IMG/VR virus record: IMGVR_UViG_3300032163_000079
Span: 1 to 28,521 of that record
Source: a virus
Strand: one strand, 5' to 3'
Length of the DNA stretch: 28,521 nt
Positions 22,265 through 26,735 of this stretch are shown here, in pieces (position 1 is the first letter of the stretch; the number at the start of each line of letters is the position of its first letter). The translations under genes were made by a program, and so were the position numbers. The notes below the pieces were generated by a model that was not told the origin of the DNA, made no database searches, and saw nothing but the letters and a program-made list of their open reading frames with translations.

Positions 22265-22651
22265 GTCTATATTTTCAAAATCTTAAATGACGCCTCTGAT
22301 GTAGGCTTCGATTGGGGGACTGACCGGACGCACGAATTATCAATCGGAAAAAATCTCGCAGAGGCCGAGAAAATGGAGGAGGAACAAAGTGAATGGGACT
22401 CTACAGACGACCGTGTGGTCGTAGAGGCAGAAACTCCGGAAGAAGCATTCGTTGAGGCCCCTTCCGCGGGAAGCGCCGACTGCTGGAAAGACGACGTCTG
22501 GCTGGGGGTCGCGGACTATCTATCGAATAAGACGTGGGCGGAACTCCTGAACGTGAAATTCGAATACACCCTGCCGTCGGTGGAAGAATGGCAGGAAATC
22601 GCCAATATCCAAGGCGAAGATGCAGTTAAAAAAGCAAAGTTATATTTATAG
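22262..22651 (+). CDS. Unrecognised acidic protein
   Basis: This 129-aa protein is acidic, with a Glu-rich middle (AEAEKMEEEQSEWDS... VVVEAETPEEAFVEAP) and Trp-containing WKDDVWLGVADYL. I recognise no family. It has a good GGGAGG ribosome site, and its leader is duplicated. It is the first gene of the plus-strand unit opposite the late operon, a position often used for early or host-takeover genes. Being acidic it might mimic nucleic acid, but this is only a guess. Confidence 0.65.
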   Translation: MVYIFKILNDASDVGFDWGTDRTHELSIGKNLAEAEKMEEEQSEWDSTDDRVVVEAETPEEAFVEAPSAGSADCWKDDVWLGVADYLSNKTWAELLNVKFEYTLPSVEEWQEIANIQGEDAVKKAKLYL

Positions 22652-22685
22652 TGCGCGGCAAAAAAACCGGAGAAGGGGGTAGAAA

Positions 22686-23126
22686 ATGAATAAAGTATCG
22701 GAAGACACAAAGTACGCCATTTTGTGCGCAAAAGAAGTGTATAACGAGCCCAGTTGGGGTGCTTGGGCTGAGAACTGGTTGAGTGAAAACAACCGGACAG
22801 AGGCGGCGGCACGGGCAGCAGAGGCCGCAGCAGAGGCGGTGGCCTCTGCTGTGGCGGAGGCGGAGGGAGAGGAGGAGGAAGTGGAGGTGGAGAAGGAGTG
22901 GGCTACTGCGGAGGCAGAGGCTGTGGGGTGGGCAAAAGAGGAGGCGGAGGCGGTGGGGTGGGCGGCAGAGTCCGCAGCGTGGGCGGCGGAAGCCGCGGCG
23001 TGGGAGGCGATGGGGGAGTCGACGAAGGCCGCACGGGCGGCTGGGGAGGCGGTGAGGACTGCGAAGGCGGCGGCGAGGACGTCGCAGGCGGTGAGGGAAG
23101 CGATGGCGGAAAGAGGTAGAAAATGA
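22686..23126 (+). CDS. Ala/Glu/Trp-rich low-complexity protein
   Basis: The 146-aa protein has an ordinary N-terminus (MNKVSEDTKYAILCAKEVYN, then WGAWAENWLSENNRTEAAA). From residue 38 it consists of Ala, Glu and Val with recurring EAEAVGWA and AAAWEA units, a long helix or coiled coil. The DNA is purine-biased and several other frames are open. The ribosome site GGGGGT and the 4-bp ATGA overlap with the next gene support this frame. The N-terminal Trp motif resembles Ala-rich repeat proteins seen in phages and toxin immunity loci; the role is unknown. Confidence 0.65.
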   Translation: MNKVSEDTKYAILCAKEVYNEPSWGAWAENWLSENNRTEAAARAAEAAAEAVASAVAEAEGEEEEVEVEKEWATAEAEAVGWAKEEAEAVGWAAESAAWAAEAAAWEAMGESTKAARAAGEAVRTAKAAARTSQAVREAMAERGRK

Positions 23127-23443
23127 AAAAAATAGCTCTCACAACCGACCACCCCTCCTCGTCCTACGGGCTACCGGTGCTCGTCATAGATGGGCAGGCA
23201 TACGGCCCGGGCGACATGACACCGCTCGGGCCTGCGGCGGAAGTCGCGGCACATCCCAGTGCTGATAATGACAAAAATCTTCTTGACCGGTTTCTCGCTC
23301 AGCTTCCGCCGCCGAGTATCTGGACAGTAACATGTTACCGGTGCGGGCACGTTTGGAGTCCTGACAGGGTAGTGCCGCCTAAGTCGTGTCCCGCCTGCCG
23401 GTCGCCATACTGGGACAGGCCGCGCAAGACACAAAAACGGTAA
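23123..23443 (+). CDS. Zinc-ribbon protein
   Basis: This 106-aa protein has an N-terminal DHPSSSYGLPVLVIDGQAYGPGD segment and a C-terminal zinc ribbon: Cys71/Cys74 (CYRCGHVW) and Cys89/Cys92 (CPACRSPYWDRPR). The ending is common in small prokaryotic regulators and antitoxin-like proteins that bind nucleic acid, though I cannot name a partner toxin here. The start overlaps the preceding stop, and an AGAGGTAG site precedes it. It is the last gene of the plus-strand unit. Confidence 0.75.
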   Translation: MKKIALTTDHPSSSYGLPVLVIDGQAYGPGDMTPLGPAAEVAAHPSADNDKNLLDRFLAQLPPPSIWTVTCYRCGHVWSPDRVVPPKSCPACRSPYWDRPRKTQKR

Positions 23444-23483: not shown

Positions 23484-23849
23484 CTCCTCAATCACCTTTA
23501 CTGCCTCTTGCCAGCCGTAGCAGACCTCAACGCGATTGCCGAAAGCACGCAAGCGTTCATGCCATGCGCATTGTGCTGGTGTGGGTTTATTCTTGCCGAC
23601 TTTCATCTCGATATAAAGGCCGTGATATGGGTCACGTGGAACAGGCAAACCGATATCTGGAAAACCTGCGCGCAACCCTTCGGCCTTCATCCACGCGCCC
23701 TGAAACGGCGACCGGCGTGCCGCGTTCGGGATGGCGTAAAGCGCACTCAATTCAGGATATGTTTTTAAGTTAAGCGCAGCCCACTTTACAAGCGCAACCT
23801 GATTTTCGTGCTCCGTCCCTTCCGGCTTCCATTTCTTGACGGCTGTCAT
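23466..23849 (-). CDS. VRR-NUC domain nuclease
   Basis: The 127-aa protein is a single VRR-NUC (PD-(D/E)xK-type) domain: Glu14 in the first helix, YAIPNAARRS at 38-47, GLRAGFPDIGLPV with Asp65, LYIEMKVGK with Glu81 and Lys83, and Gln93 in TPAQCAWHERL. All expected catalytic residues are present. Such stand-alone phage nucleases are thought to act on branched or damaged DNA during replication and packaging. The ribosome site AAGGAG lies within the end of the preceding small gene. Confidence 0.9.
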   Translation of the reverse strand: MTAVKKWKPEGTEHENQVALVKWAALNLKTYPELSALYAIPNAARRSPFQGAWMKAEGLRAGFPDIGLPVPRDPYHGLYIEMKVGKNKPTPAQCAWHERLRAFGNRVEVCYGWQEAVKVIEEYLGAK

Positions 23850-23851
23850 AT

Positions 23852-24019
23852 CTATCTCCTTAGTCGTTCCTGTTGTTCTAAATAAAGAGAGGCCTTTCCT
23901 TTCTGTTCTGCCGCTTTAACAGCGAGTGCTCTCGCTTTCATATTCATATCCGCTAACTCCTGTTCAAGGGCATTTATCATCCGGCTCAAACAGGCGGCTG
24001 TGTTTATGAAAATGTTCAT
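23852..24019 (-). CDS. Small helical protein, 55 aa
   Basis: A clear AGGAGAAATT site precedes the ATG at 24019. The product starts MNIFINTAACLSRMINALEQ and continues as a charged helix (ELADMNMKARALAVKAAEQK, then YLEQQERLRR), probably a coiled coil. No family is recognised. It ends 2 bp before the nuclease ATG. Confidence 0.65.
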   Translation of the reverse strand: MNIFINTAACLSRMINALEQELADMNMKARALAVKAAEQKGKASLYLEQQERLRR

Positions 24020-24027
24020 AATTTCTC

Positions 24028-24282
24028 CTATCTATCCTCTTGGCATCTCACTTCGACATAAGCAAATCCTGCCAGCGCCAACTTCGCAGTCATCCATGCA
24101 CGAATACGTGGACTATTAGGCGAAGCTTCGGACAGTATCACGCGCGAGATGCAGGAAAAATCGCCCCAGTTTATGGATTCACCTTTAAATGCGTCTTTTG
24201 TGTGGTAGGCTTCTTCACACATTTTTATTGCGCATTCGCGCAAAGACACCAATTTTTTCATAACATCAAGATGCTCAGTCAT
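24028..24282 (-). CDS. Small unknown protein following the TIGR array
   Basis: The ATG at 24282 has an ideal AGGAGGAAAT site immediately left of the array. The 84-aa product starts MTEHLDVMKKLVSLRECAIK and includes INWGDFSCISRVIL and PRIRAWMTAKLALAGFAYVEV. No known domain is recognised. A longer frame would start at 24441, but that extension is the translated array (36 bp equals 12 codons, so the repeat stays in frame) and is spurious. Its place directly after the array makes it part of the same transcript; a role in the Tas system is possible but unsupported. Confidence 0.75.
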   Translation of the reverse strand: MTEHLDVMKKLVSLRECAIKMCEEAYHTKDAFKGESINWGDFSCISRVILSEASPNSPRIRAWMTAKLALAGFAYVEVRCQEDR

Positions 24283-24296
24283 ATTTCCTCCTATGG

Positions 24297-24594
24297 TCTT
24301 ACGCTTGCTTCCAGTGGGTGTCTCGTCGTTCATGGCTCGCTTGTGTTTTGTGGTTGTCTTTCGCTTAGTGGCTCGCTTGGCAACAGTGGGTGTTTTATGA
24401 TTTATGGCTCGCTTCACGCTCGTGGTTGTCTTGGCTATCATGGCTCGCTTGCCTTCAATGGTTGTCTCATGCCTAATGGCTCGCTACAATGCAATGGGTA
24501 ACTTTAATCTCGTGGCTCGCTTGCCTTCAGTGGGCATCTCGTAAAACGTGGCTCGCTTGTTGTCTTTGGGTGTCTGCATAATCTTGGCTTATCT
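24297..24594 (-). repeat. TIGR-type array: 36-bp dual-repeat, dual-spacer units
   Basis: On the plus strand TGGCTCGCTT recurs exactly every 36 bp at 24333, 24369, 24405, 24441, 24477, 24513 and 24549, with degenerate end copies at 24297 and 24585. Halfway between (24315, 24351, 24387, 24423, 24459, 24495, 24531, 24567) is a different 10-mer, consensus TGGKTGTCTY. The 16 intervening 8-bp segments are variable. No insertion or deletion disturbs the period. This is the layout of Tandem Interspaced Guide RNA arrays, whose processed tigRNAs are 36 nt with two spacers. Transcription is probably on the minus strand with the neighbouring tas gene. It is not CRISPR: repeats and spacers are far too short and two repeats alternate. 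Confidence 0.9.
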
Positions 24595-25542
24595 CAAATA
24601 AACCCACCCCCTCTCCTCCGGTCTTATTACCCGATGATTTTCACCGAGCATCGCCTCTACATAAAGTGCGTCTGTCGGCAGTCCCCTTAGCATCCTTCCG
24701 ACAAACCAGTAATCCGCGAGGAAGTGCTTCATTATCGCCCTTATCCCCGCCCCGTGTCTATGGCAGGGCTTAGCGTCCTTCCACGCCACCTCAACTAACT
24801 TACCTTGAGTGTTGCGGCTCATCACCAGTTTATCACTGCATGACAGACGATGCTTAACCGCGTCATAAACGGCACGATAGGGGCCGCGCCCTTTTATCTG
24901 ACTGTCGGCCATAGTGTAGAGGGCAGTTCTCAAGGTCTTGTTGCCGCCGCCCGCCGTTCCCTTTTCGTAACGCGAATGTGAGGGCTTGTCAAGTCCGGCA
25001 TACGCCCACAGGCTGGAGGCATGACGGGCTTTTTCAAGGTCTATGTATATCAGACAATTTGCAACCGTCATGGGGCCGATGGACTTTACCCCGATGGCAG
25101 CTTTTACAAGCGGGTCTGTTTTTACCATCTCCTTTACCGTCTTGCTCACCGCCGTGTCTATCGTTACGAGCTTGCCCGCAATAGCGTCAAGGTGAGAATT
25201 GAGAAACTCCTTTGTGTCCGCATCGAGGAAGTCCGTCCCCCGCTCCATCGCTAACAGCTGATTGTTTATTTTATTGCGAAGTTGCATGACGTGCCGCCGG
25301 CTGTCCATCTGCCCCTTGAGTATTTCAAAAAGTTCCTCACGTTCCCGCAACGTCCCCTGCTTCTTCATACGAGGGCGCGGCAGGACTGCCTGAACGTTCG
25401 GAAACGATAACCGCCCGCCCCGCGACTTAGGAATTTTCCGGTTCGCGTCATACAGCGGAACGGGGAGAGGCAATACCCCGCCCGATATGGCGCACAAGCC
25501 GTTCTGTGTCTTCTTGGTGGCAATCTTGATAGCTGTTTTCAT
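24589..25542 (-). CDS. tas: Tas protein of a TIGR-Tas system, nuclease-less (TasA-like)
   Basis: The 317-aa protein has a basic N-terminus (1-65), a coiled-coil helical region (about 66-145), then the Transposase_20/IS110 C-terminal-like core: GVKSIGPMTVANCLIYIDL (151-169, helix-hairpin-helix), LWAYAGLD (178-185), GGGNKTLRTALYTMA (198-212) and RAIMKHFLADYWFVGRML (268-285). The N-terminal RuvC/DEDD domain of true IS110 transposases is absent, and no HNH or inserted RuvC is seen. In TIGR-Tas systems this core is the Nop-like RNA-binding domain that uses dual-spacer guides to find DNA; forms without nuclease are called TasA. It ends inside the first array repeat. AAGGAG precedes the ATG. An annotation pipeline would probably call it an IS110/IS1111-type transposase. 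Confidence 0.85.
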   Translation of the reverse strand: MKTAIKIATKKTQNGLCAISGGVLPLPVPLYDANRKIPKSRGGRLSFPNVQAVLPRPRMKKQGTLREREELFEILKGQMDSRRHVMQLRNKINNQLLAMERGTDFLDADTKEFLNSHLDAIAGKLVTIDTAVSKTVKEMVKTDPLVKAAIGVKSIGPMTVANCLIYIDLEKARHASSLWAYAGLDKPSHSRYEKGTAGGGNKTLRTALYTMADSQIKGRGPYRAVYDAVKHRLSCSDKLVMSRNTQGKLVEVAWKDAKPCHRHGAGIRAIMKHFLADYWFVGRMLRGLPTDALYVEAMLGENHRVIRPEERGWVYLR

Positions 25543-25656
25543 CGGTTTTTCTCCTTATTTTCAGTTAGTAAAAACCAAACTCTTTATAAATCGCCTACTT
25601 AGCGTTATTACCCTTAGCCTACCCTTGGCAGACCCCTTTTTGTTGGATTTAGACCG

Positions 25657-25974
25657 CTAAACCCCTCCATGAGTGGCCTTCTTTTTGATAATATTGGTGC
25701 CCAAGTTGTCTATTTTACCCATCCCGCGCCGTTTAGGGTTCGTGCCAAACCTGTAATCCCACAGAGAGCATTTATGGGGCGCCGGGGCCAAGACCTCACC
25801 CATGCACTCCTTGACCTGTGGTGAGCTACCTACACAATCGAGACAATGAACACGTATCTTTTTTAAAGAAGATAAATCGCGGTCATTTAGTTTACAAAAT
25901 ATACTCCCGCAATCAAATTGCTGTCCGTTCTTGCAATAGCGGCATTGAATCTTGATTGACTTCTTCGGTGTCAT
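25657..25974 (-). CDS. Cys-rich putative zinc-binding phage protein
   Basis: From the ATG at 25974, with a strong AAGGAGGAAGTT site, this gives 105 aa. Two Cys clusters are visible: Cys11/14/22/27 (CRYCKNGQQFDCGSIFC) and Cys44/47/57/69 (HCLDCVGSSPQVKEC... CSLWDYRFGTNPKRRG). The CLDCxGxSPxxVxxC...CxLWxYRxGxNP motif is very common in phage early regions but has no assigned function. A start 10 codons earlier (26004) lacks a ribosome site. It is 8 bp or less beyond the loader operon context and precedes tas by 114 bp. Confidence 0.8.
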   Translation of the reverse strand: MTPKKSIKIQCRYCKNGQQFDCGSIFCKLNDRDLSSLKKIRVHCLDCVGSSPQVKECMGEVLAPAPHKCSLWDYRFGTNPKRRGMGKIDNLGTNIIKKKATHGGV

Positions 25975-26012
25975 AACTTCCTCCTTTTTTCGCTCAACCG
26001 TCAAGTTTTCCT

Positions 26013-26735
26013 TTACGGTTGCCCCGCCAAACCCAGCCGCCAGTCCTTCTGCCCCATGTTTATAACTGCACCCATCTCGCAGATGCGTGAGGCGATGCGG
26101 GCATCAAACTGTTCCGCTAACTGACCTTGCGTTAGATTACTCGTAATTATCGTCTGCCGGCAATCACGATAACGGCGGTCTATCAACAGGTATAAAACCG
26201 TGCGTGACCAGTCGCTTACTTTTTCTGCGCCTAAATCGTCTAACGTTAGAAGTGGACACCGTGAGTATTTTTCAAGGATAGCCCTTTCCTGTTCTGTTTC
26301 TCCCTGCCATGAGTTTTTTATTTCAAGGAGCAATTCAACCACTGGTAAAAATCGTGGTGTGCCCTTCGCCGGATAAATGCCGCTCTCTGCCACATCAAGG
26401 TTGTCCGCCAGCCAATTTCCCATGAGCGCGGAGGCAAGATGCGTTTTACCAGAGCCGTGCCCGCCGGTTAAAAATAAGCTCTCGCCTTTTCGTAAAATCT
26501 CCAATGCCCGCTCTGACTGTTTGTTTTGCAACAGGCCTTTTCCACGATAGCGGAGCGGTATGCGCATATCGGCAGTCGCCCTGATAGACCGCCCCGCCCT
26601 AACCGCTTCCTTCGTCTTCGTCAAATCGCTCTGTGACGGCATCGTAAGCTGCGCCGTCAGCCCAGACTCCACCTGCGGGCGTTCTGGCATTTTGATTATT
26701 GCGCTGATTTTTTCCATAGCACTCATTGCAAACAT
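26013..26735 (-). CDS. DnaC/IstB-like AAA+ helicase loader
   Basis: The 240-aa ATPase has Walker A GGHGSGKTHL at 91-100, Walker B LLTLDDLGAE at 162-171, sensor 1 ITSNLT at 197-202 and the arginine-finger region ARIASRICEMG at 212-222. It should load a replicative helicase, from host or phage, at the origin. The N-terminal 55 residues overlap the replication gene upstream by 137 bp. AGGGGG favours the second ATG (26726) over the first; another possible start is at 26567, exactly where the conserved part begins. Confidence 0.85.
   Translation of the reverse strand: MFAMSAMEKISAIIKMPERPQVESGLTAQLTMPSQSDLTKTKEAVRAGRSIRATADMRIPLRYRGKGLLQNKQSERALEILRKGESLFLTGGHGSGKTHLASALMGNWLADNLDVAESGIYPAKGTPRFLPVVELLLEIKNSWQGETEQERAILEKYSRCPLLTLDDLGAEKVSDWSRTVLYLLIDRRYRDCRQTIITSNLTQGQLAEQFDARIASRICEMGAVINMGQKDWRLGLAGQP

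Follow-up and report, generated by a model that had tools for sequence, protein, structure and literature searches.

A phage-borne TIGR-Tas system of the TasH branch with a predicted dead HNH nuclease

The tandem array on the minus strand of the window (the whole 28,521-nucleotide stretch of viral DNA that was analysed) very probably belongs to a phage-borne dual-repeat TIGR-Tas system of the TasH branch, in which the HNH nuclease is predicted to be dead and guided binding to DNA would take place without cutting. Judged by those defining features that can be checked in sequence, the system is a member of TIGR-Tas, an assignment that follows from its TasH-like neighbour, from the edge repeat and the 10+8 layout of Salicola phage CGphi29, and from the presence of arrays in all 25 relatives. 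The contig is that of a tailed phage, and its gene content comprises a terminase, a portal (head-to-tail connector), a GP7-type capsid and tail genes. The features of the locus are collected in Table 1.

Table 1. Features of the TIGR-Tas locus and its downstream flank
Feature	Position	Strand	Remarks
TIGR array	24302-24594 (about)	minus	truncated edge, then 8 x [A 8, loop 10, B 8, edge 10 nt]
tasH-lineage gene, 317 aa	24589..25542	minus	degenerate HNH (aa 1-66), then coiled coil and Nop domain
HNH domain, aa 1-66	25345..25542	minus	H58->R, H62->Q, Y45->L; D32, R35, G43, N49, P55 kept
GGAGG, ribosome-binding-site-like (AGGAGG-like)	24287..24291	minus	belongs to the next gene, directly after the array
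84-aa gene, no Pfam or PHROG match	24028..24282	minus	directly downstream of the array

Anatomy of the array and its flanks

The dual-repeat arrays of TIGR-Tas systems consist of two alternating repeats of 8-12 nt, separated by spacers that are mostly 9 nt long and 8 nt long in SpTIGR, where the variable sequence amounts to 16 nt (PMC12045711). SpTIGR belongs to the published TIGR-TasH system, that of Salicola phage CGphi29 (Faure et al. 2025, PMC12045711), and the complexes formed by TasA, TasR and TasH hold 36-nt RNAs (PMC12045711). The array of the window has this same alternating organization, with 16 ten-base repeats set at exact 18-bp steps, a 36-bp unit and 16 variable spacers of 8 nt each distributed over eight units. 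The edge repeat has the 10-nt consensus AAGCGAGCCA and the loop repeat reads AAGACA[C/A]CCA (10 nt). As in TIGR-Tas arrays, both ends carry truncated edges: the first edge repeat, AGATAAGCCA, is a truncated or degenerate copy that shares 6 bp with the 3' end of the tas gene, and the last one, AAGCG, is shortened at its 3' end. The two repeats have A2, C9 and A10 in common, the box-like motif expected in this family, and all loop and edge repeats of the window retain the final CCA. From unit 1 to unit 8, the spacer pairs (A/B) are AGATTATG/AAGACAAC, CGTTTTAC/CTGAAGGC, CGAGATTA/TTGCATTG, TTAGGCAT/TTGAAGGC, TGATAGCC/CGAGCGTG, TAAATCAT/CTGTTGCC, CTAAGCGA/CAAAACAC and TGAACGAC/CTGGAAGC; two of these 16 spacers, CTGAAGGC and TTGAAGGC, are alike at 7 of 8 positions.

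The periodicity is far from what composition yields, the self-match at 36 bp reaching 0.62 over 216 bp against a maximum of 0.41 at any period from 20 to 60 when the whole window was shuffled 30 times with dinucleotides preserved. Averaged over columns, the information content is 1.73 bits for the edge repeat and 1.52 for the loop repeat, against 0.46 and 0.63 bits for the two sets of spacers. The description in an earlier note of two alternating 10-mers at 18-bp steps, with a 36-bp period, eight units and 16 segments of 8 bp, was thus confirmed by reading the sequence and by the shuffles. The 10-mers described there are real repeats given as reverse complements, since the functional strand is the minus strand, as indicated by the strand of the tas gene and by repeats that end in CCA. 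Likewise, the array placed there at 24297-24594 exists, with the slightly shorter extent of Table 1. The same note does not mention the adjoining tas gene or assign a strand, and the loss of HNH residues described below was beyond its reach.

Within the window no second array was found. The possibility that the array forms a structured RNA or belongs to a known family of Rfam was rejected, as it has no Rfam match and its RNA is not more stable than shuffled sequences (z +1.44). A CRISPR array, which has one repeat of 25-36 nt and spacers of similar length, does not describe a locus with two 10-nt repeats, 8-nt spacers and an adjoining Tas gene.

A Rho-independent terminator after the array has been called typical of TIGR loci (PMC12045711), although it does not define them. 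Unlike in CGphi29, no terminator-like site follows the array of the window, neither between the array and the next gene nor elsewhere on the minus strand in 23800-26100, and the ribosome-binding site of the next gene comes immediately after the last repeat. These two features together suggest that the array is part of a polycistronic transcript. In two relatives (L009 and L010) the next gene likewise starts directly after the array. Elsewhere in the window, at 22646-23152, a tandem repeat with a 21-bp period, GC-rich and alanine-rich, is covered by long overlapping open frames on both strands. No tas gene was present in the fetched stretches of 80 loci sharing the capsid gene of the window phage.

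The Tas effector and the loss of its HNH histidine pair

The gene directly upstream of the array, on the same strand, encodes a Nop-domain Tas protein, so that array and effector adjoin as TIGR-Tas systems demand. A phmmer search of PDB sequences matched residues 11-314 to TasH (21kl and seven other entries, E=5.8e-96), the next match being TasR (9mty, E=3.6e-11), and tblastn against phage records returned Salicola phage CGphi29 (51% identity, 96% coverage). The protein also passes the cut-off of 100 bits of the NCBIfam model NF052498 (TIGR_Tas_endo, 'TIGR-Tas system RNA-guided endonuclease') with 114.4 bits. Its AlphaFold2 model (mean pLDDT 89.6) was matched by Foldseek to 9w04_B (E=3.4e-32), a chain of the TasH-tigRNA-dsDNA complex on which VIA-align superposes 307 residues with a Z of 29.3 and an rmsd of 4.4; beyond the HNH domain, the model fits 9vzx_A over 244 residues with an rmsd of 1.9. 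With an N-terminal HNH fold, a TasH-type Nop domain, and 42-56% identity to TasH relatives against only about 30% to TasA-like effectors, the protein falls in the TasH subtype. Tas proteins are easily mislabelled, since Pfam shows only a C-terminal Transposase_20 stretch and the PHROGs label of the family is transposase. An IS110 transposase was nevertheless rejected, as the DEDD domain is missing, the N-terminus aligns with the HNH of TasH and the Transposase_20 match is confined to the C-terminal part; the NCBIfam IS110 model does not match the protein at E 0.01. When the protein was used as a query against genome contigs, no host or chromosome copies were found, nor were any plasmid copies.

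The HNH domain was examined in 28 TasH sequences (the window protein and 27 others), a column being taken as conserved when it is the same in at least 26 of the 27 others. Eight HNH columns qualify (D32, R35, G43, Y45, N49, P55, H58 and H62), and the window protein has lost three of them, compared with none of the 50 conserved columns after the HNH domain (Fisher p = 0.0018). The pair H58 and H62 (H-x3-H) is present in all 27 other proteins and replaced by R58 and Q62 in the window alone; none of the 27 departs at more than one conserved HNH column. Position 34, which is D or H in nearly all other TasH, is N here. The profile of the family HNH, 'GGiYteeNtrvvtPvahmkrh', aligns with colicin E7 in a match that is weak (E 0.05) with a clear motif, and the missing pair falls on the HxxxH of colicin E7. 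In colicin nucleases the H-x3-H motif binds the metal. VIA-align places T4 endonuclease VII on residues 1-63 of the model (Z 8.0, 58 residues, rmsd 1.6).

The HNH catalytic residues, mapped in TasH by alignment only, are therefore not intact as in an active TasH endonuclease, and the effector is predicted to be a member of the TasH lineage with a dead nuclease. Since the histidine pair is lost and none of the 50 conserved positions beyond the HNH domain shows a loss, we infer from this one contig a nuclease-dead, RNA-guided DNA binder. The residue losses are read from a single metagenomic contig that has no close relative, and a decaying locus or a sequence error behind them retains a small share of probability; decay is made less likely by the undamaged Nop columns and the good preservation of the repeats.

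It is unlikely that the nuclease still works and cuts through substitute ligands, as a TasH like that of CGphi29 would. The retention of D32, R35, G43, N49 and P55, a beta-beta-alpha core predicted at good confidence and a clean reading frame speak for such activity, but the pair found in 27 of 27 relatives is R and Q here, Y45 is L, position 34 is N, and the lost histidine pair aligns with the HxxxH of colicin E7. Less probable still is that the phage carries a functionless, decaying TIGR-Tas remnant. The lost HNH active site would fit it, as would the degenerate first edge, even if the family usually has a first edge truncated at its 5' end (PMC12045711). Against it stand a clean frame open over 317 aa, the absence of any loss among the 50 conserved positions outside the HNH domain and the final CCA kept throughout the array.

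A second Tas lineage, found in L151 (~466-1305) and L180 (2483-3349), has an N-terminal HNH of zinc-ribbon-like type, and both the usual DH and the final H/N appear to be replaced there (KRIIP or DRIIP; CEW or CDW). Judging from these residues, it is possibly another inactivated HNH-Tas; if this lineage also lacks the usual histidines, inactivation would be recurrent.

Known counterparts and proposed mode of action

The closest known counterpart is the TIGR-TasH system of CGphi29 (PDB 9w04, 9vzx, 9w02, 9w03 and 21kl). Its effector is of the same lineage (51% identity over the whole length), its array lies downstream of tas on the same strand in a phage context, and its array combines the edge AAGCGAGCCA and the loop AAGACAaCCA, both 10 nt long, with 8-nt spacers. 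The window differs in the loss of the HNH histidine pair and in its eight units with different spacers, carried by an otherwise different phage. TIGR-TasA, a solo Nop domain without nuclease, resembles the window in the predicted outcome, tigRNA-guided binding without cutting, and the edge repeat of the window is also that of some short TasA-like effectors encoded in viral contigs; the window protein differs in that the N-terminal HNH fold is still present. A Tas nuclease domain without active site is also found in TasR with inactivated RuvC from CPR bacteria (PMC12045711), which represents another nuclease fold and lineage, in a clade that goes with stem arrays (PMC12045711). In the main text of that paper the inactivated Tas nucleases are inactive RuvC forms only (PMC12045711). 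The Nop domain fold is shared with IS621 of the IS110 family (VIA-align Z 15.4, 186 residues, rmsd 3.7), from whose transposases the window protein is set apart by the missing DEDD transposase domain, and with box C/D Nop5 (Z 7.8, 152 residues, rmsd 4.3).

A minus-strand transcript running through the tas gene would probably also carry the array. By analogy with the published family, this transcript, with Tas bound and required for the step, would be cut in the edge repeats to give eight 36-nt tigRNAs, each laid out as half edge, spacer A, loop, spacer B and half edge. A Tas dimer would hold each tigRNA through its edge and loop repeats and a DNA site of ~16 bp would be opened, with spacers A and B pairing to opposite strands, while the target DNA would be sharply bent by the Tas complex, as in the published family. 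With a predicted dead HNH the cutting step should fail here, and the complex would be expected to leave its target bound and bent. We infer that cleavage is absent and that the complex would serve as a roadblock or repressor guided by RNA and directed at a competing element, the host or the phage's own genes. A natural dead TasH, in which the nuclease has been inactivated and guide binding kept, and which serves the phage as a programmable DNA-binding repressor, is the somewhat favoured form of this proposal. The targets, spacer origin and function of TIGR-Tas are open questions (PMC12045711). The predicted dead HNH would make the system of the window a variant of the TasH branch; if so, a binding-competent TasH that does not cut would point to a regulatory or blocking role, as suspected for TasA, and the protein would constitute a compact natural dead effector.

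Relatives, spacer turnover and target search

Besides the window, 25 relatives were parsed (24 viral contigs and CGphi29), and all 26 loci have dual 10-nt-repeat arrays that share the strand of tas and whose spacers are nearly all 8 nt long; the arrays lie downstream, upstream or on both sides of tas. Their edge repeats occur as the variants AAGCGAGCCA, AAGTGAACCA and AAATGAATCA. Pairing with covariation has been described in edge repeats (PMC12045711), and here too positions 3:8 and 4:7 covary, the two pairs being complementary in 92% and 95%, respectively, of 285 repeats, where permutations gave means of 85% and 78%. The reading as a TIGR array, which the earlier note had drawn from the layout, hence gains support from the adjoining Tas protein and from this covariation. 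The comparisons it had proposed also bore it out: the repeats match the published SpTIGR locus, the related phage contigs have arrays at every parsed locus, and spacers vary between close relatives instead of forming a fixed satellite.

This variation is seen between L017 and L018, two phages with 97% identity in TasH and ~93% in the flanks. Only 22 of 558 distinct spacers recur among the loci, 12 of them between these two. Their arrays (L017 4930-5498 and L018 4939-5471) have A-loop-B cassettes in common, nearly always paired and in the same order, with wholly different cassettes interspersed among them in mid-array; in the common units the edge repeats differ more than the cores. As read from the sequences, common cassettes kept in order with unrelated ones between them speak for the wholesale replacement of units, and the exchange makes TIGR spacer turnover directly testable. 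A tandem repeat in a protein-coding gene or a fixed satellite can accordingly be dismissed as having next to no probability, for even though the 36-bp period is divisible by three and frames extend partly into the array on both strands, no open frame runs through it and stops occur in all six frames, L017 and L018 exchange some units wholesale, and an array adjoins the tas gene in every parsed relative.

Units that are copies or near-copies of one another occur in the arrays of L002, L003 and L007, as with CGAAGTAT/TACCTGGA and CGAAATAT/TACCTTGA in L002, and the window spacers at 24523-24530 and 24451-24458 are near-duplicates as well, suggesting that arrays grow by unit duplication followed by drift. 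Targets were sought with composite 16-mers in four geometries, with gaps of 0-2 and at most one mismatch; in 1.19 Mb of related loci there was no excess over re-paired controls. The count for the B-A order, 36 against 17-28 in controls, is inflated by related contigs. An exact scan of the viral collection with two guides of the window gave 7 and 13 matches, compared with 15 for a re-paired control, and neither search yielded a natural target.

The exact edge-loop-edge pattern was found in 58 stretches of viral contigs and in two of Candidatus Nomurabacteria contigs, and a Tas homologue, in several cases short and TasA-like, is encoded in the fetched DNA of 49 of these 60 stretches. The two CPR contigs (L177 and L178) carry the same edge-loop-edge repeats, and L177 encodes a TasA-like protein of ~270 aa. 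Microcystis phage Mvi-JY20 (L012, 2965-3900) encodes a Tas-like protein (193 bits), annotated as hypothetical only, and has a 36-bp dual-repeat array after this gene (ATGCGAGCC / ACGAAACCC). Thirty-five mycobacteriophage records match the window Tas in tblastn against phage records. In Mycobacterium phage Ohno789 (L013, 2500-3564), the Tas-like protein passes the NCBI TIGR-Tas model (232 bits), is annotated as hypothetical or transposase, and is preceded just upstream by hairpin-like units that could be a TIGR array of the stem type, in a phage group amenable to genetics.
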